Positions 8,458 to 50,819 of a stretch of DNA of 51,052 bases are shown here, one piece after another. The stretch comes from Synergistaceae bacterium (GTDB lineage Bacteria; Synergistota; Synergistia; Synergistales; Aminobacteriaceae), in NCBI GenBank assembly GCA_017470785.1, contig JAFUXM010000187.1:1-51052 (forward strand). The letters are read 5' to 3'. Numbering within the stretch: the first letter of the stretch is position 1; the number at the start of each line of letters is the position of its first letter. A program made the translations under genes and the position numbers. The notes beneath the pieces were generated by a model that saw only the letters and a program-made list of their open reading frames with translations, was not told the DNA's origin and made no database searches.

Positions 8458-9528
8458 TTATTGCTTCACGCAGCGCACGATTGCATCCGGAATTTCGTTT
8501 AAAGGCAGTATCTCGTCGACTACTCCGGCGTCAACTGCAGCCTTAGGCATTCCGTAAACAACGCAGGTTTTCTGCGATTCAGCTATTACATGCGCTCCCT
8601 TGCGCTTTAAAGCCAAAGCGCCGTCCGTGCCGTCGCGGCCCATTCCGGTTAATATCACGCATAACACATTGCCGCCGAACTCGTCGGCTACGCTTAAGAA
8701 CATTACATTTGCTGCCGGCTTGACCGAGAGTACAGGCGGCGCGTCAGACAACGCGCATACTGCTACGCCGTTGCGCCTCTTAAACGTCAAGTGGCTGCCG
8801 CCCTGGGCTATTACAACGCGACCGGCCTTTAACGTCAGCCCGTCAAAGCCTTCAACTACTTCAACCTGCGACGCGCTGTCCAAACGCTTGGCAAACGACG
8901 GCGTAAATTCTTTAGGCATATGCTGAGTTATAACTATCGGCACAGGGAAATTTTTAGGCAGCTTCGGGATAAGATCGCTTAACGCCATAGGGCCGCCCGT
9001 TGACGACGCTATCGCAACTATGTCGCGCCGCCTCGATACACCGCCTAAATTTAAATTATTTAAATTAAAGCTTGAACTAAATGACGGCTGACTAAAGCCT
9101 GAAGCTTTATAAGGCTTGACCTTGGCCGTACTCGCTGCAATAACTTTCTCGATTATCTCTTGGCCTACTTTATTTATATCGGGCATGTAAGCGCCCGACG
9201 GCTTGGCTATGAAGTCAACGCAGCCCAAAGACAAAGCCTTTAACGTGACCTCCGCCCCCTCGTGAGTTATAGAACTCACCATCACAACAGGCACAGGACA
9301 CGTCTTCATGATCTCTTCAAGCGCTTGTATGCCGCTCATGTTAGGCATCTCAACGTCCATAGTAACGACATCGGGCCTTAAAGTCTTTATTTTGTCAATC
9401 GCATCGCGGCCGTCCCGGGCTGTGCTTATAACATCAATGCGCGGGTCGGACTGGAGAATATCCCCCAGCATCGTCCGCATCAAGGCTGAATCGTCAACGA
9501 CAAGTACTTTTATCTTTCCAGTCCCCAA
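8458..9528 (-). CDS. cheB: Receptor methylesterase / response regulator CheB
   Basis: 356 residues. The receiver domain (about 1-120) has the acidic pair at Asp12-Asp13, the phospho-acceptor Asp58 (VVTMDVEMPNMSG) and the Lys of FIAKPSG. After a linker of about 50 residues rich in Ser and Asn comes the methylesterase domain with its triad: Ser176 in ASSTGGP, His203 in TQHMP and Asp299 in TGMGRDGTDG. CheB demethylates and deamidates chemoreceptors after phosphorylation by CheA. The start is TTG at 9528, supported by a strong GGGAGG eight bases upstream; no ATG is nearby. It lies between flhG and cheA in the operon. Confidence 0.93.
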   Translation of the reverse strand: MGTGKIKVLVVDDSALMRTMLGDILQSDPRIDVISTARDGRDAIDKIKTLRPDVVTMDVEMPNMSGIQALEEIMKTCPVPVVMVSSITHEGAEVTLKALSLGCVDFIAKPSGAYMPDINKVGQEIIEKVIAASTAKVKPYKASGFSQPSFSSSFNLNNLNLGGVSRRRDIVAIASSTGGPMALSDLIPKLPKNFPVPIVITQHMPKEFTPSFAKRLDSASQVEVVEGFDGLTLKAGRVVIAQGGSHLTFKRRNGVAVCALSDAPPVLSVKPAANVMFLSVADEFGGNVLCVILTGMGRDGTDGALALKRKGAHVIAESQKTCVVYGMPKAAVDAGVVDEILPLNEIPDAIVRCVKQ

Positions 9529-9622
9529 GCCTAATTCCTCCCGAACATTTTAAATTTTTATTGCTTAACTTTATTATTATACTTTATAAAATTTTAGAAA
9601 TTTTAAATTTATTTAATTTAAT

Positions 9623-10537
9623 TTATTTTTCTCTAAAAAGTCCGCGGGTCAATCTCGCAAAGAATGCCTTTAAGCCCTTGGGCTCGGGCTTAACCGGCCT
9701 GCCTTCCCACAGCCTTATAATTTCATCCGTGATCTTTCTGACACATGCGGCCGCTGCACTCGACGGCGTGAGCCGATAAAAAATTCTTCGCATTCTAACG
9801 GCTCTTTCTATATTATTATCTTTTAATATATAGCCTAAAAATATAGGCGCACTGCCTAAAAACTGCATAGAAGCCATGCGTATTCTCTCGGCTACGTCAT
9901 AGGCCTCACGCTGATTATTCGCCATGTTTACTATCAGCATTAAATCGCCGCCCTGCGAACTGTGAGCGCCCCCAAGAGATTTAATAACCCCGTAAGCGTC
10001 GCGTATCGACGTAGGCTCTGGTGTCGTGACTAAGACAGTCGTGTCGGCAGCTTGGGCAAAGGCTCTGACGCCCTTATGAATGCCTGCTCCTGCATCAAGT
10101 ATTAATAAATCCGATAATTGCTCTAAACCTGACAGCGTCTCAAATATTCTTGATAACGCGTCATCGTCCAAGTCGGCCATCTCGCGCAGGCCAACGCCGC
10201 CGGGCAGCAGCAAGATATTTTTCTCAATCGGCAGTAAAATTTCATGCAAAGTTCGGCTGCCCTCGACTAAGTGCGACAAATTATATTTCGCGCTCACGCC
10301 GCATAAAATATCTAAATTTGCCATGCCTAAATCAGCGTCTAATAACACAACCTGTTTATTTTTGTCAGCAAAAGCGCACGCAAGCGCAATGGCAACGTTG
10401 CTCTTGCCGACGCCGCCCTTGCCGCTTAATATCGCTAAAGTCTTAGGCCGCCCCTTCTGCCTTAACACTTGCCGCTTCTTTTCAACAATGCGCCTGAGAT
10501 CTCCAGCCTGATCCTGCTCTAATGGCTTATCGCTCAT
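9623..10537 (-). CDS. flhG: Flagellar number regulator FlhG, MinD/ParA-type ATPase
   Basis: 304 residues. It has the deviant Walker A of the MinD/ParA family (LSGKGGVGKS, residues 38-46), the switch-like LLDADLGMANLDIL motif, and LLILDAGAGI as Walker B. The N-terminus carries the short basic/polar FlhG region (AGDLRRIVEKKRQ), which in known FlhG proteins activates the GTPase FlhF. FlhG limits flagellar number and works with FlhF. The gene follows flhF after 34 bases, the usual pairing. The C-terminus (about 255-304) is basic and may form a membrane-binding helix. Confidence 0.9.
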   Translation of the reverse strand: MSDKPLEQDQAGDLRRIVEKKRQVLRQKGRPKTLAILSGKGGVGKSNVAIALACAFADKNKQVVLLDADLGMANLDILCGVSAKYNLSHLVEGSRTLHEILLPIEKNILLLPGGVGLREMADLDDDALSRIFETLSGLEQLSDLLILDAGAGIHKGVRAFAQAADTTVLVTTPEPTSIRDAYGVIKSLGGAHSSQGGDLMLIVNMANNQREAYDVAERIRMASMQFLGSAPIFLGYILKDNNIERAVRMRRIFYRLTPSSAAAACVRKITDEIIRLWEGRPVKPEPKGLKAFFARLTRGLFREK

Positions 10538-10571
10538 GTTAAATTTTCCCGTAATATCTTAATTAATATTC

Positions 10572-12167
10572 TCATGCTAAACGCTCTCCGTCAGGCTTCA
10601 TCAGAAATTCGGCTATGCGCATTCCCGTTGCTGTCTCTATATCTTTAGGCACGTTCTGGCCGGCCGCTAAGAACGAGATCGGCGCTCCTACTACCTGCTG
10701 TATATTAAACACAGCGCCGTAGCTCACTGTCTCGTCAAGCTTAGTGAATATTAAATGCGACACCGGAATACTCGGAATATGCTGCACTACGTCAAGCATG
10801 TCTTTATACTTCATATTTGCAGCTAAAACTAAATGCACTGCGTCAGGATTAAACGCGTTATAAACAGATTCAAAAATTTCAAGGCTCTTGCGGTCTCTTG
10901 GCGCCCGGCCGGCTGTATCCAATAAAATTATGTCTGCATTATCATGCTCTGCAATTACAGCAGGCAGCGTAGCAGGCTCAAATATTATCTCAATCGGCAC
11001 GCCTAAAATCTTAGCGTAAGTTTTAAGCTGATCTACTGCGGCAATTCTGTACGTATCACTTGTTAATAACAAAACTTTTTTATGTTCCCATAATGCTTTT
11101 ATAGCTGCAAGCTTTGCAATAGTCGTAGTCTTGCCGACGCCGGTCGGACCTAATAACATTACTTTACGGCCGCCTGCTACATCGCCGCCGTTATCGCCCG
11201 AACATTTTATTTTAGACGCAAGCCACTCAGTGAAACTTTTCTTTTTACTTTTATCAGCTACGGCATAGTCAGCTAAATATTTTCTAATATATTTCTCGTC
11301 AACTTCAGAATCTCTTAATAACTTTGCGATCTCGCGCTCTTCAGGGCTTAATCCTGCATCAGACACGCCCGGCAGACCGGCCTGAAACTCAGAGCTTGCG
11401 CCGTTATTCATCCGCTGGCTCGCTATCTCACTGCCCACTATCGCAAGCCGCTCAAGCAACGAATCTATACGCTCGCTCAACGCCCCGACCTGCTTTAATA
11501 CTTTCGATTCTTCTTCCTTATTAATATTATTAACATTATTATTATTTAAATTATCAGCCGGAGCTTTAGCCTGCAAATTATTATTATTGCCGTCTAAATT
11601 TGCTTGAGACTGCAAAGCCGCCGGTATAAACGGCGCAAGATTATTTAATTTATTATTATCTGCCTGATTAGCATTATTTGCATTTGCATTAGCATTATTA
11701 TTATTTAAGCCATAGGCATTGCGCAGCCCCTCGCTTGACACACGGATAACATCGCCATCGCTGCTCTTGCTTTGAATAGCTGCACCTGCCGGCACATAGC
11801 CTTCTTCGCCAGTGGCCGGCGGCGTTATAGAATTATTATTATTTGGAGCTGCAAGCGTGTTATTGCTTGAGCGTTCTTTAAGCTCCATAAATTTTTGAAA
11901 CGCCATAACGGTCTCACGGCGCGTCTCCTCGTCGCTCTTCTGCTGATCTTTGGGCTTAGGCTTGGCCTCTTTCTTAGCGGGCTCGTCGTCGGTCAAAATT
12001 CCAGCCGTAACCTTAAGCACAGGCCGTTGAAACAATCCCATGAAGCCGCCCTCTTTGACCATTCTGGTCGATAGAATAACGGCATCCTTGCCAAGCCGCT
12101 CAGACGCAAGTCTTAACGCCTCGGCATCGTCCTTCGCCTCGAAAGTAATTTGATTTATTACCCGCAT
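10572..12167 (-). CDS. flhF: Flagellar placement GTPase FlhF (SRP family)
   Basis: 531 residues. The N-terminal B domain (about 1-65) includes DDAEALRLASERLGKDAVIL. A long low-complexity linker with many Asn runs (about 70-220) follows, then the N and G domains. The P-loop GPTGVGKT is at 340-347. Further SRP-GTPase motifs are DTYRIAAVDQL, LLDTAGR and FTKLDE. FlhF recruits early flagellar components to their place at the membrane, and FlhG stimulates its GTPase. The Asn-rich linker is coded by (AAT/AAC)n tracts and is longer than in many FlhF proteins. Next to flhA upstream and flhG downstream, the standard order. Confidence 0.92.
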   Translation of the reverse strand: MRVINQITFEAKDDAEALRLASERLGKDAVILSTRMVKEGGFMGLFQRPVLKVTAGILTDDEPAKKEAKPKPKDQQKSDEETRRETVMAFQKFMELKERSSNNTLAAPNNNNSITPPATGEEGYVPAGAAIQSKSSDGDVIRVSSEGLRNAYGLNNNNANANANNANQADNNKLNNLAPFIPAALQSQANLDGNNNNLQAKAPADNLNNNNVNNINKEEESKVLKQVGALSERIDSLLERLAIVGSEIASQRMNNGASSEFQAGLPGVSDAGLSPEEREIAKLLRDSEVDEKYIRKYLADYAVADKSKKKSFTEWLASKIKCSGDNGGDVAGGRKVMLLGPTGVGKTTTIAKLAAIKALWEHKKVLLLTSDTYRIAAVDQLKTYAKILGVPIEIIFEPATLPAVIAEHDNADIILLDTAGRAPRDRKSLEIFESVYNAFNPDAVHLVLAANMKYKDMLDVVQHIPSIPVSHLIFTKLDETVSYGAVFNIQQVVGAPISFLAAGQNVPKDIETATGMRIAEFLMKPDGERLA

Positions 12168-17696: not shown

Positions 17697-17769
17697 TTGT
17701 GTCTTACTTTACACTTTAAAACTTTAGAGCTTAATTGTTTAATGTAAAAATTTTAAAAAAATTATTTAA

Positions 17770-17778
17770 TGCTATAAT
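17770..17778 (+). promoter_or_regulatory. Extended -10 promoter element before the glycosyltransferase array
   Basis: TGCTATAAT, a perfect extended -10 box, lies 28 to 36 bases before the likely start of the first glycosyltransferase. No good -35 is visible at the normal spacing, which is tolerated by extended -10 promoters. A transcript from here would cover the three glycosyltransferase genes. Confidence 0.55.
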
Positions 17779-17805
17779 TTTAAAAAATTTAATCAAAACG
17801 GGGTA

Positions 17806-18795
17806 TTGAAGTTGAATGAAGCAGAGCAGCATTGCAAGCTATTAAGCGTTGTAATACCGGCCTATAATGCTGAGAAATTTTTAGCTAAGTGCGTCGCAAG
17901 CATCGCTGAGCAAATTTATAAAAATATAGAAATTATAATAGTGAATAACGGCTCGCAGGACAACACGCCTAAAATTTGCGAAGAGCTTGAAGCTAAATAT
18001 AATAATATAAAATTTAAAATTATAAATTTAAATCCCAATCAGGGCATTAATTACGCGCGGCGCGCCGGCGTTGAGAATGCGAGCGGCGAGTATATAGCGT
18101 TTATAGATTCAGATGATTATTTAGAGCCTGAGACTTACGGGACAGCTATAAAAATTCTTGAAGCAAATAATTGCGATATAGTGCAGTTCGGTATAAAACG
18201 CGTTAATCTCAACGTAAAAATTTTGGGCTTGTGGCGCAGGAAGGACATGACGATTAATAATTCTCAAGAGATTTATAAATATTTCCTGACTGATAAAATC
18301 CCGACTTGGAATGTATGGGACAAAGTTTATAAGCGTGAAATATTTAATAATTTAATTTGGCCGAAGGTATCAGCCCTTGAGGATTATTGCATGTCGGCGC
18401 AGATATTTGCAAAAGCGCAAAAAATTATGACGATAAATAAATTATTTTATAATTACGTTCAGCATCCCGGCAGCACTATGAGATTAAATAGCGTTGAACA
18501 GTCAAAATGTGATGAGGGGAACACGTCTTTAGCTATCGTCATGAACTTAACTCAAAATAAATTTCCGGACTTGCTGCCCGAGGCAATCGCACGGAAAATT
18601 CTGTTCACAGCCAACGCTGATGCTGATGACTATAAGCTCATGAAAGCCGAGCTTAAAAGGCAAGGCCGCAGTAATATTTTATTAGAATTAAGCTTAAAGC
18701 ACAGAATTTATTTATGGCTGTCAATACACTGCCGAAGCTTATATAAAATTTATTTAAGAACGCGCCTAAAAATTCACGCGCTGACCGGGATTTAA
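17806..18795 (+). CDS. Family 2 glycosyltransferase, copy 1
   Basis: 329 residues, GT-A fold family 2. The nucleotide-sugar site is shown by LLSVVIPAYNAEKFL, then IIVNNGSQDNTP, and the DxD-type motif FIDSDDYLEP. The acceptor-side ED motif is in SALEDYCMSAQIFAKA. There is no membrane segment. The start is TTG, either at 17806 or more likely at 17812, where the GGGG at 17800-17803 is at proper distance; no ATG is available. The first 120 or so residues are almost the same as copy 2 while the C-terminal 130 differ. It would transfer a sugar to an unknown acceptor (surface polysaccharide, glycolipid or a protein such as flagellin). Confidence 0.85.
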   Translation: MKLNEAEQHCKLLSVVIPAYNAEKFLAKCVASIAEQIYKNIEIIIVNNGSQDNTPKICEELEAKYNNIKFKIINLNPNQGINYARRAGVENASGEYIAFIDSDDYLEPETYGTAIKILEANNCDIVQFGIKRVNLNVKILGLWRRKDMTINNSQEIYKYFLTDKIPTWNVWDKVYKREIFNNLIWPKVSALEDYCMSAQIFAKAQKIMTINKLFYNYVQHPGSTMRLNSVEQSKCDEGNTSLAIVMNLTQNKFPDLLPEAIARKILFTANADADDYKLMKAELKRQGRSNILLELSLKHRIYLWLSIHCRSLYKIYLRTRLKIHALTGI

Positions 18796-18829
18796 ATTAT
18801 ATAAATATAACACGAGGTATAAAATCAAC

Positions 18830-19840
18830 ATGACAGATTTAAAAAAATTAAGCGTGATAATACCGGCCTATAACGCTGAGAAATTTTTAGCTAAGTGCGT
18901 CGGCAGCATCGCTGAGCAAATTTATAAAAATATAGAGATAGTGATCGTGAATAACGGCTCGCAGGACAGCACGCCTAAAATTTGCGAAGAGCTTGAAGCT
19001 AAATTTAATAATATAAAATTTAAAATAGTAAATTTAAATCCTAATCAAGGCATTAATTACGCGCGGCGCGCCGGCGTTGAGAATGCGAGCGGCGAGTATA
19101 TAGCGTTTATAGATTCAGATGATTATTTAGAGCCTGAAACTTACGAGACAGCTATAAAAATTCTGGAAGAAAATAATTGCGATATAGTGCAGTTCGGGAT
19201 AAAGCTCGTTGATCTTGACGGAAAATTGACTGATGAGTGGCCGCGGCAAGACATGACGTTTAATAATTCTCAAGAGATTTATAAATATTTCCTGACTGAC
19301 AAGACATCTCCGACTTGGAACGTATGGGACAAAGTCTATAAGCGCAGCTTATTTGAAGATATAACTTGGCTGAAGATCTCAGCGCTTGAGGACTACTGCG
19401 TGTCGGCGCAAATTTTTGCTAAGGCAAATAAGCTGATTACTATAAATAAATTTTTATATAACTACGTTCAGCGGCCTGACAGCACCGGCAACCAGCAAAA
19501 GCTAAGCAAATCAAAGCTTGATGATATAATTGCGGCCTCAGACTTCGTAATTAACTTAACCGGGCAAAAATTTCCCGCGCTTCAGCCCGAGGCATTAGTC
19601 CGTGAACTGGAAGCCTTATCCCAGTTTACAATCGCCTTTTGGCCTGAAGTATCTCAGGCTATCCGCCGCAGCTATATTAATATGCGCAGCACGCTTAAAA
19701 ACTGCGGCATAGAATTTAAAATCAAGAATACAGCTAACCGCAAGGATTTACTTCATGCACACTGCTTAACAAATTACCCGAAATTATATAAATTTTATTT
19801 AACAACGCGCTTGAAGATTCATGCCTTGACAGGAATTTAA
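18830..19840 (+). CDS. Family 2 glycosyltransferase, copy 2
   Basis: 336 residues with the same GT2 core as its neighbours: LSVIIPAYNAEKFL, VIVNNGSQDSTP, NPNQGINYARRAGVENASGE, the FIDSDDYLEP metal-binding motif and the acceptor-side SALEDYC. Against copy 1 only about ten of the first 120 residues differ; after residue 200 they diverge strongly, apart from the shared end RLKIHALTGI. The 34 bases before its ATG are almost identical to the 34 bases before copy 3, including the ribosome-binding CGAGG. This is a tandem gene duplication whose donor-binding half is conserved and whose acceptor half has changed. Confidence 0.87.
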   Translation: MTDLKKLSVIIPAYNAEKFLAKCVGSIAEQIYKNIEIVIVNNGSQDSTPKICEELEAKFNNIKFKIVNLNPNQGINYARRAGVENASGEYIAFIDSDDYLEPETYETAIKILEENNCDIVQFGIKLVDLDGKLTDEWPRQDMTFNNSQEIYKYFLTDKTSPTWNVWDKVYKRSLFEDITWLKISALEDYCVSAQIFAKANKLITINKFLYNYVQRPDSTGNQQKLSKSKLDDIIAASDFVINLTGQKFPALQPEALVRELEALSQFTIAFWPEVSQAIRRSYINMRSTLKNCGIEFKIKNTANRKDLLHAHCLTNYPKLYKFYLTTRLKIHALTGI

Positions 19841-19874
19841 ATTATATAAATATAACGCGAGGTATAAAATCAAC

Positions 19875-20912
19875 ATGACAGACTTAAAGAAATTAAGCGT
19901 AATCATACCGGCATATAACGCAGCAAAATTTTTAGTTAAATGCGTTGACGGCATTGCTAATCAGACTTATGAAAATATTGAAATTGTTATAGTGAATAAC
20001 GGCTCGCAGGACAACACGCTCGAGCTTTGCGAAGAGCTTAAAGCTAAATATAATAACAGGGAATTTAAGATAATAAATTTAAATCCTAATCAGGGAATTA
20101 ACTGGGCGCGGCGCGCCGGATTTGAAAATGCAAGCGGCGACTACGTCACGACTATCGACAGCGATGACTATATAGACTTAAACGCTTATGCAAGAGCTAT
20201 TAAAGTTTTGGAAGCAAATGACTGTGACATGGTACAGTTCGGGCACTACGAAGTTTATCCCGACGGCAGAATTCTGGAAGAACATAAATGCAGGCCGGTC
20301 AAAGCTGACAATGCTCACGACGCGTTTAAATATTTTGCGTCTGTGATATTAAACAGCGCCACTTTATTATGGGACAAAGTTTATAAGCGCAGCTTATTTG
20401 AAAATTTACAGTGGCCGAAAGTATCTTACACTGAAGATTATTGCACGGACACACAACTATTTGCGAAAGTGCAAAAATTTATGTCAATAGACGAGAGCTT
20501 TTATTATCATACCGCCAATCCAGACAGCGTGTGCAGCAGGGTGTTAGTCAATAGACAAAGCATCGAGGATTTTATTACCGGCTCTAAATTTGTCACAAAC
20601 TTCACGGCTAAGGCTATGCCGGAATTTTTACCCGAAATTTTATGCTATTCAGTTTATATTAATTTCAGTATAATTATCGGGCTTATCACACTATATTATC
20701 CTGAAGACTTATGCAAAATTATGAGCAGAGATTATAAGCGCATGAACAGCGAACTCAAACGGCAGAACCGGAAACTTGACATGAACCCGCCGCTCAGCAG
20801 CAAGCTTAGCCGCAAGCAGCGAGTGATAATGTATTTGCTGGCAAATTGCCCGCGTTTATACTACGCATATTTAAAGACTCGCCTCACAATAAAAAAATTA
20901 ACCGGCATTTAA
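19875..20912 (+). CDS. Family 2 glycosyltransferase, copy 3
   Basis: 345 residues, the most diverged of the three. It keeps SVIIPAYNAAKFL, VIVNNGSQDNT, NPNQGINWARRAGFENASG, a DxD motif TIDSDDYIDL, the W-D-K-V-Y-K-R motif shared with the others, and an acceptor-side Glu-Asp in SYTEDYC. Its C-terminus ends KLTGI like the other two. The stop lies two bases from the stop of the convergent priA gene, with no terminator between them, so the ends of the two transcripts probably run into each other. Confidence 0.87.
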   Translation: MTDLKKLSVIIPAYNAAKFLVKCVDGIANQTYENIEIVIVNNGSQDNTLELCEELKAKYNNREFKIINLNPNQGINWARRAGFENASGDYVTTIDSDDYIDLNAYARAIKVLEANDCDMVQFGHYEVYPDGRILEEHKCRPVKADNAHDAFKYFASVILNSATLLWDKVYKRSLFENLQWPKVSYTEDYCTDTQLFAKVQKFMSIDESFYYHTANPDSVCSRVLVNRQSIEDFITGSKFVTNFTAKAMPEFLPEILCYSVYINFSIIIGLITLYYPEDLCKIMSRDYKRMNSELKRQNRKLDMNPPLSSKLSRKQRVIMYLLANCPRLYYAYLKTRLTIKKLTGI

Positions 20913-35611: not shown

Positions 35612-36697
35612 TTATTTAGCTTTTAATTTATAGACCATAGCAAGAATTTCAGCGACGCCTCGGTATAAATCAGCCGGTATCTCTTCGCCGACTTCGACCT
35701 GCTCGTACAGCGCCCAAGCAAGCGGCTTATTCTCGATCACAGGCACGTTATTTGCTTCTGCTATTTTTCTTATCTGCAGAGCTAAATAGTCTTGACCTTT
35801 AGCTATGACCTGCGGTGCGCTCATGAACTCCCGCTCATATGCTAACGCGATAGCTAAGTGCGTAGGGTTCGTGATAACAACGTCGGACTTCGGCACGTCC
35901 GCCATCATGCGCTGCTTGGCCATCTCACGCTGCTTCTGCCTAATCTTGCTCTTGACCTGCGGATCGCCCTCCATCTGTTTATATTCTTCTTTAATTTCCT
36001 GCTTGCTCATCTTGATAGAGCGCTCAAATTCCCATTTTTGATACAGATAATCCGCGCACGCCATCACTAACAGCATTGCCGCCAGTCTCATAGCCAGCGA
36101 CCATAGCATGTCCCAGAATGCCGAGCCGCCTATCGCCAATGGCATCTGCATAGTCTTTGACGTCTCGGGCAAATAATTTTTTATCGCCGTGTAAATCACG
36201 ATCGCAAATAAACTCGCCTTTAATAAGCCTTTTAATAGCTCAACTATAGACCTTAACGAGATAATTTTTTTCATGCCTGAAATGGGATTAAGCCTGTCAA
36301 ATTTAGGTTTAAACGGCTCGCTCGTGAACGCGAAGCCGACTTGACAGATTAATACAGCCATCGAGAACAGCGCGATTAATAATCCCAGAGGCAGCCATGA
36401 CAAAAAATAATCTTGAATTGCTTCCCATGATACAAAATACAGCCAGCCGTCATCGTTCAAAGTCTTATCGCCCATAAAATTTACGCTGAACGTGATTAAA
36501 AACGTCAAAGTCCGCCAAGTCAACGCGCCGAGCATTAACATTCCCATTAAGCCCACTATAAGCTCAGTAGCTGCCGTTAAGTCCTTGCTCACGCACACGC
36601 GGCCCTCTTCACGGACTTTCTCACGCTTACGCGGCGTAGCAGGCTCAGTCCGCTCTTGACCAAAGAACTGAATATTAAATTTAAATTTTATCGCCAT
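35612..36697 (-). CDS. flhB: Flagellar export protein FlhB
   Basis: 361 residues. Four membrane segments in the N-terminal half (about 42-62, 98-120, 155-175, 195-215), with the typical N-terminus ERTEPATPRKREKVREEG. The soluble C-terminal domain has the self-cleaving NPTH at residues 277-280 (VVITNPTHLAIAL). FlhB switches the export apparatus from rod/hook to filament substrates after cleavage. The start overlaps the stop of the chimeric gene upstream by 10 bases, just as that gene overlaps fliR. Its first 89 residues are duplicated in the chimera. It ends the proximal flagellar operon, followed by a strong terminator. Confidence 0.95.
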   Translation of the reverse strand: MAIKFKFNIQFFGQERTEPATPRKREKVREEGRVCVSKDLTAATELIVGLMGMLMLGALTWRTLTFLITFSVNFMGDKTLNDDGWLYFVSWEAIQDYFLSWLPLGLLIALFSMAVLICQVGFAFTSEPFKPKFDRLNPISGMKKIISLRSIVELLKGLLKASLFAIVIYTAIKNYLPETSKTMQMPLAIGGSAFWDMLWSLAMRLAAMLLVMACADYLYQKWEFERSIKMSKQEIKEEYKQMEGDPQVKSKIRQKQREMAKQRMMADVPKSDVVITNPTHLAIALAYEREFMSAPQVIAKGQDYLALQIRKIAEANNVPVIENKPLAWALYEQVEVGEEIPADLYRGVAEILAMVYKLKAK

Positions 36698-36824
36698 AGC
36701 ATGATTGCCCCGAGCGCAAACTCAATCCATCGTTCCATTAACGGGAATAACATATCGACAGCTAAGGGCAGCACTGCCGCTAACACAAAAAATCCCAGCG
36801 CAACTTTAACCGGCAAGCCAACTA
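36432..36824 (-). repeat. Tandem duplication, copy 1 (flhB start plus end of chimera)
   Basis: 393 bases matching 36830-37222 with ten substitutions and an offset of 398. It covers the 3' end of the fliR-like part of the chimera and the first 89 codons of flhB. The 5 bases 36825-36829 separate the copies. A 6-base deletion relative to copy 2 (loss of two codons, NIFVVG to NIVG) lies at the border. Confidence 0.95.
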
Positions 36825-37095
36825 TATTCACAAAATACAGCCAGCCGTCATCGTTCAAAGTCTTATCGCCCATAAAATTTACGCTGAACGTGATTAAGAA
36901 AGTTAAAGTCCGCCAAGTCAATGCGCCGAGCATCAGCATTCCCATTAAGCCCACTATAAGCTCAGTAGCTGCCGTTAAGTCCTTGCTCACGCACACGCGG
37001 CCCTCTTCGCGGACTTTCTCACGCTTACGCGGCGTAGCAGGCTCAGTCCGCTCTTGACCAAAGAACTGAATATTAAATTTAAATTTTATCGCCAT
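36688..37095 (-). CDS. Chimeric duplicate: FlhB N-terminus fused to FliR C-terminus
   Basis: 135 codons, fully open. Residues 1-89 are identical to FlhB 1-89. Residues 90-135 are the last 46 or so residues of FliR (NIVGLPVKVALGFFV to GAIMLWR), with two residues lost at the join. It arises because the fliR-flhB junction is duplicated in tandem; the break fell so that the FlhB frame continues into the FliR frame. The 10-base overlaps with fliR upstream and flhB downstream are kept, so all three could be translationally coupled. The product would be a small membrane protein of about three membrane segments. It may be functional, a recent by-product, or an assembly error from mixed strains. Confidence 0.6.
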   Translation of the reverse strand: MAIKFKFNIQFFGQERTEPATPRKREKVREEGRVCVSKDLTAATELIVGLMGMLMLGALTWRTLTFLITFSVNFMGDKTLNDDGWLYFVNIVGLPVKVALGFFVLAAVLPLAVDMLFPLMERWIEFALGAIMLWR

Positions 37096-37222
37096 AGCAT
37101 GATCGCCCCGAGCGCAAATTCAATCCATCGTTCCATTAACGGGAATAACATATCGACAGCTAAGGGCAACACTGCCGCTAACACAAAAAATCCCAGCGCA
37201 ACTTTAACCGGCAAGCCAACTA
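36830..37222 (-). repeat. Tandem duplication, copy 2 (fliR end plus chimera start)
   Basis: The upstream copy in transcription order: the 3' end of the true fliR and the first 89 codons of the chimera. The ten differences from copy 1 are all silent, since the two FlhB segments and the two FliR segments translate identically. Confidence 0.95.
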
Positions 37223-37871
37223 CAAATATATTCATCTGAGGCACAGTGCGGGCAAGAAAGCCAAGGCCAATATCTGAAAGCACTAAAGCGCAGTAAAACG
37301 GCACGACTATACGCATCCCTATGCTAAATAAATTTTGCAGCCACGTCCCTACTGCAACGTCGCCGGCCGGCAAAAATGACAGCTGCCCGAGCGGCACAAG
37401 CTTTATGCTCTCGATTATAGCTTTGATCATTAATAAATGGCCGTTCCAGTGAAAGTAAAACCATAAGGCAGTTAAGAAATTTAATTGGCCGATTAAGGAC
37501 GTCTCCGCCTGCGTCATCGGGTCCATGACTTGAGCCATTGAAAAGCCCATGACCGTGCCGATCTGCTCACCGGCTAACCTCACTGCAACTAAAGGCAGCG
37601 ATGACAAGAAGCCAAATGCAAGCCCGATTATTAATTCCCTTACGGCTAATATAACAAGCGTGAAGACATTATCGAAGTTTATTAACGCAACTTGCGTCTC
37701 ACCGGCTGAGTAAACAGACGCGAATGTTAATATCACAGCGAAGATATAGCGAACCGGCGTCGGTGCCATGATGCCCGTGAACACCGGCGAGTTAAACGTC
37801 ATTCCTACAAACCGTAAATGCAGCAGCAAATATGCTATTAGCAGCTGCGTCGGAAGCTCGATACCGCGCAA
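37086..37871 (-). CDS. fliR: Flagellar export gate protein FliR
   Basis: 261 residues, with six or so hydrophobic segments. Family blocks include RFVGMTFNSPVFTG, VRELIIGLAFGFLSSLPLVA and SMAQVMDPMTQAE. It forms the export pore with FliP and FliQ. The start is TTG at 37871 with no obvious ribosome binding site. No ATG or GTG lies upstream in a better place. It overlaps the next gene by 10 bases; the natural partner flhB comes after the chimera. Confidence 0.93.
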   Translation of the reverse strand: MRGIELPTQLLIAYLLLHLRFVGMTFNSPVFTGIMAPTPVRYIFAVILTFASVYSAGETQVALINFDNVFTLVILAVRELIIGLAFGFLSSLPLVAVRLAGEQIGTVMGFSMAQVMDPMTQAETSLIGQLNFLTALWFYFHWNGHLLMIKAIIESIKLVPLGQLSFLPAGDVAVGTWLQNLFSIGMRIVVPFYCALVLSDIGLGFLARTVPQMNIFVVGLPVKVALGFFVLAAVLPLAVDMLFPLMERWIEFALGAIMLWR

Positions 37872-50656: not shown

Positions 50657-50704
50657 GCGTCTGAGCGTCTGAGCGTCTGAGCGTCTGAGCGTCTGAGCGT
50701 CTGA
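50657..50704. repeat. Octanucleotide tandem repeat (GCGTCTGA)6
   Basis: Six perfect, contiguous 8-base units with no variation, followed by GCGA. It is GC-rich within very AT-rich DNA and not inside a supported gene. Such perfect short repeats are prone to slippage. Confidence 0.95.
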
Positions 50705-50819
50705 GCGATTATAGCAACTTTGCGCACAACTGTCTACCCCTTTCTTTAAATTTTTTAATATTTTTAAATTTTTTTCATTATACCATAATCAATATCATAA
50801 TTATAAAATTTTTAATTAA

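Follow-up and report, generated by a model that had tools for sequence, protein, structure and literature searches.

False segmental (haplotype) duplications have been described in assemblies of diploid eukaryotes (Kelley and Salzberg, 2010; PMC2864568), and metagenome-assembled genomes are known to contain local errors, including duplicate sequence at joins, among which are joins made despite overlapping flanks and a consensus that lacks local support (Chen et al., 2020; PMC7111523). A natural fusion of FliR and FlhB occurs in Clostridium (NCBIfam NF009411/PRK12772; mentioned in PMC7064499). Here we describe a duplication at the fliR/flhB boundary of a Synergistaceae draft genome that gives rise to an open chimeric reading frame. 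Comparison with relatives and with the remainder of the draft indicates that this is very probably a false tandem duplication from metagenome assembly, in which the alleles of two strains were concatenated, and that the chimeric ORF is most likely an assembly product rather than a gene.

The window, by which we mean the whole stretch of DNA analysed, is one entire contig of 51,052 bp from a draft assembly of 2.57 Mb in 300 contigs, 96.5% complete and with an estimated contamination of 4.2%; the relatives of the source genome are Synergistaceae and Synergistales metagenome genomes, mostly ruminant-derived. A sequence-only reading of the window had reported a 393-base repeat at an offset of 398 with ten differences, and an open frame of 135 codons between intact fliR and flhB. 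Both observations were confirmed (Table 1): the two copies are 97.5% identical, and the minus-strand order is fliR, chimera, flhB, with a 10-base overlap at each boundary. Pfam and NCBIfam profiles confirm the FliR and FlhB identities, the intact FlhB scoring 390.4 bits against TIGR00328 (cut-off 349.25) and the intact FliR falling a little under the TIGR01400 cut-off with a strong Pfam match. The chimera scores 45.4 bits against TIGR00328, over model positions 1-104 of 348, and does not qualify as a functional FlhB. No second copy was found elsewhere in the Synergistaceae draft.

Table 1. Features of the fliR/flhB locus in the window and near-adjacent duplications on other contigs of the draft.
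Feature	Position	Strand	Identity	Details
fliR, intact	37086-37871	-		261 aa, TTG start; Pfam Bac_export_1
Apparent chimeric ORF	36688-37095	-		135 codons; FlhB 1-89, N-I, FliR 218-261
flhB, intact	35612-36697	-		361 aa; TIGR00328 flhB above cut-off
Repeat copy A	36432-36824	.		N-terminal part of intact flhB and the chimera's FliR C-terminal part
Repeat copy B	36830-37222	.		the chimera's FlhB part and C-terminal part of intact fliR
Junction between repeat copies, TATTC	36825-36829	.		fliR continuation minus 6 bp
L112 duplication	7950-8286/8423-8761		94%	end of argS and following ftsB-like gene
L126 duplication	3252-3534/3561-3844		95%	
L136 duplication	5603-5886/5904-6191		94%	LPG-synthase-like gene next to bioY
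L167 duplication	13032-13360/13376-13704		96%	end of rarA and RQC-domain ORF
L202 duplication	1-215/241-454		94%	
L130 duplication	11109-11551/11539-11967		91%	

The earlier statement that both parts of the chimera translate identically to their intact counterparts holds for the mismatches, all ten of which are silent, but fails at the join. There, N90-I91 of the chimera correspond to N214-I215 of FliR and residues F216-V217 are absent: on the coding strand fliR reads ATG AAT ATA TTT GTA GTT GGC and the chimera GTG AAT ATA GTT GGC, so that the chimera is without the TTTGTA (Phe-Val) next to the join, a 6-bp deletion relative to fliR that was read by eye, an automatic short alignment not rising above shuffles. 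The FliR part is thus imperfectly preserved, and it comprises the last 44 residues of the protein rather than the 46 first proposed.

Elsewhere in the window lie three tandem glycosyltransferase-like genes (17733-20912; 329, 336 and 345 aa) with VVIPAYNAEKFL and SDDY motifs, the family being assigned by eye; they are spaced 1006 and 1045 bp apart with 64-89% identity and form an ordinary diverged gene array. A perfect 8-bp tandem repeat, GCGTCTGA, is present in 6.4 copies at 50657-50707, near the contig end and in an apparently intergenic stretch.

The most telling support for an assembly artefact comes from similar duplications in unrelated genes of the same draft. A scan of 140 contigs, including that of the window (about 1.10 of the 2.57 Mb), for near-adjacent duplications, with minima of 150 bp and 90% identity, recovered at least six further cases of 215-444 bp and 91-96% identity, and several additional duplications are located at contig ends. 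These interrupt unrelated genes and yield truncated surplus ORFs, such as the 104-residue fragment that adjoins the intact LPG-synthase-like gene on L136 and the broken 112-residue copy of the RQC-domain ORF after rarA on L167; a homologue search in relatives for the latter ORF and for the N-terminal part of the former gene returned almost none at the sensitivity used, so that it says nothing on whether these loci are single-copy there and is left out of the evidence. On L112, argS was identified by its DALR and catalytic domains and the ftsB-like gene by eye. Between the copies on L112, L126 and L167 the spacer consists of nearby flank in diverged form with internal deletions, which compares with the loss of 6 bp where fliR is joined, while the likeness of the L136 spacer to its flank is only suggestive. 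Scanned at the same thresholds, 489 kb of the relatives' fli loci contained zero near-adjacent duplications. At seven duplications per 1.10 Mb, a stretch of 0.49 Mb would be predicted to contain about 3, and the Poisson probability of none is about 0.045; since this control is mostly one locus, the zero count is weak on its own.

Two other repeated regions were seen in the draft. At the start of contig L085 (1-1116) the C-terminal part of an ADP-ribosylglycohydrolase is present as three consecutive copies that are 93-96% identical, which is probably the same strain-variant artefact, and L076 carries at 8862-10908 an array with a period of about 484 bp and copies 88-91% identical, which could either encode a genuine repeat protein or be one more stitched region.

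Overlaps between contig ends offer a second line of evidence. The end of L169 and the start of L093 share 300 bp at 97.7% identity, with seven codons and no residues differing, and the end of L136 overlaps the start of L122 by 403 bp at 96.5% identity, where 13 codons and one residue differ. In length and in silent divergence these ends match the fliR/flhB copies, and concatenating such contig ends would produce the pattern seen at 36432-37222; they appear to be the same phenomenon in unjoined form. Taken with the internal duplications, several such diverged end overlaps mark the draft as one that holds unmerged strain variants.

The assembler step that we infer from the observed duplication, its silent divergence, its absence in relatives and the other duplications of the draft would run as follows. 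In the sampled population this Synergistaceae species would have been represented by two or more strains, approximately 2.5-4% apart in conserved genes. The assembly path of one strain would end about 89 codons into flhB, and that of the other would begin or extend from a point about 44 codons short of the fliR end. Strain differences would cause the assembler to miss the overlap, and the ends would be joined with the 393 bp present twice. The chimeric ORF would then be a read-through of the join between the two strain paths, and at the real locus flhB would simply follow fliR, the two overlapping by 10 bp. Against an artefact, no Ns separate the copies, and a plain de Bruijn path should leave the junction k-mers in the reads, and there might accordingly be a molecule that carries the join.

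The pattern of silent change is that of ordinary alleles. The sister species L032 (JAFSNU010000408.1, from goat reticulum; 85-88% DNA identity to the window) has one fliR-flhB junction and lacks the duplication. Across the duplicated codons it differs from the window at 48, of which 46 are silent (16 of 16 in FliR and 30 of 32 in FlhB), and over the whole of fliR only 5 of the 90 differing codons are nonsilent. Ten silent differences out of ten, which the sequence-only reading had considered unexpected of a free duplicate, are therefore to be expected for ordinary alleles, the probability being about 0.65 for these and about 4e-7 for unconstrained change. The latter value leads us to reject neutral divergence after duplication. 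Silent divergence between the copies is about 0.12 per site, approximately a tenth of that to L032, and lies on a within-species scale. An identity of 97.5% combined with wholly silent differences is the allele-like divergence that a false tandem duplication from strain variants predicts. When the differences are polarised by L032, the sister-like base stands in the chimera at six of the eight informative sites and in the intact genes at two, a distribution that suggests neither free drift of the chimera nor its special preservation. As a separate observation, the FlhB of L032 (2331-3473) has an N-terminus 19 residues longer, with a second FKFKF-like stretch, which suggests that a short segment was locally duplicated or inserted where flhB begins.

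Assembly stitching of two strain variants is the best supported of the three explanations put forward by the sequence-only reading. Another, a true tandem duplication generated by unequal or illegitimate recombination between diverged strain alleles, with a passive and functionless chimera as its by-product, is unlikely. It accounts for the strain-level silent divergence and for the intact operon on both sides, a small deletion at the join is as in illegitimate recombination, and the sister-like bases of the chimera show no excess decay. Such a model would, however, require independent events of a like kind to have occurred at six or more unrelated loci within a single draft, and it leaves the diverged overlapping contig ends unexplained.

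That the chimera is a real gene kept by selection, as an extra export-gate membrane piece or a regulator of FlhB, is very improbable. Its ORF is open, in register with the operon and separated from the intact genes by silent differences alone, but we reject selection on the chimera as the cause of those changes, as intact alleles and species show an equal silent excess. A search of 36 same-genus and 24 same-order genomes found separate FlhB and FliR matches and no chimera, L032 likewise has none, and no viral contig searched encodes a relative of it. The PQMNIFVVGLP motif of FliR is near-invariant across 45 relatives, and it is this motif that has lost its FV in the chimera, which retains no more of FlhB than its first 89 residues and no more of FliR than its last 44. 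Furthermore, similar duplications in the draft give obviously broken gene fragments. Slighter still is the prospect of a species-specific FlhB(1-89)-FliR(C-terminal 44) membrane protein that is under selection, is translated between fliR and flhB and modulates export-gate assembly.

An assembly origin carries a caution, namely that when strains are mixed in a draft metagenome genome, chimeric genes can arise that are open and in register and whose differences, being all silent, mimic selection. The further partial duplicates in the same draft would mislead studies of gene families and of duplication.

Among known systems, the Clostridium fusion resembles the chimera in combining FliR and FlhB sequence within a single ORF. 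In that fusion, however, FliR precedes FlhB, whereas here an FlhB N-terminus precedes a FliR C-terminus and both are fragments. Against the 610-position NF009411 model the chimera reaches 37 bits (cut-off 739), over the FlhB N-terminal stretch only, and membership of this family is rejected. The locus shares with the errors of metagenome-assembled genomes (PMC7111523) a join made despite flank overlap that leaves duplicate sequence, although the overlap case described there carries Ns, whereas in the window 5 bp free of Ns directly connect the two copies, which are 2.5% apart. With the false duplications of diploid assemblies (PMC2864568) it shares two diverged versions lying adjacent, with unique flank on each side, that create an illusory duplication; in place of the two versions of a diploid genome, those at fliR/flhB would derive from bacterial strains co-resident in a metagenome.
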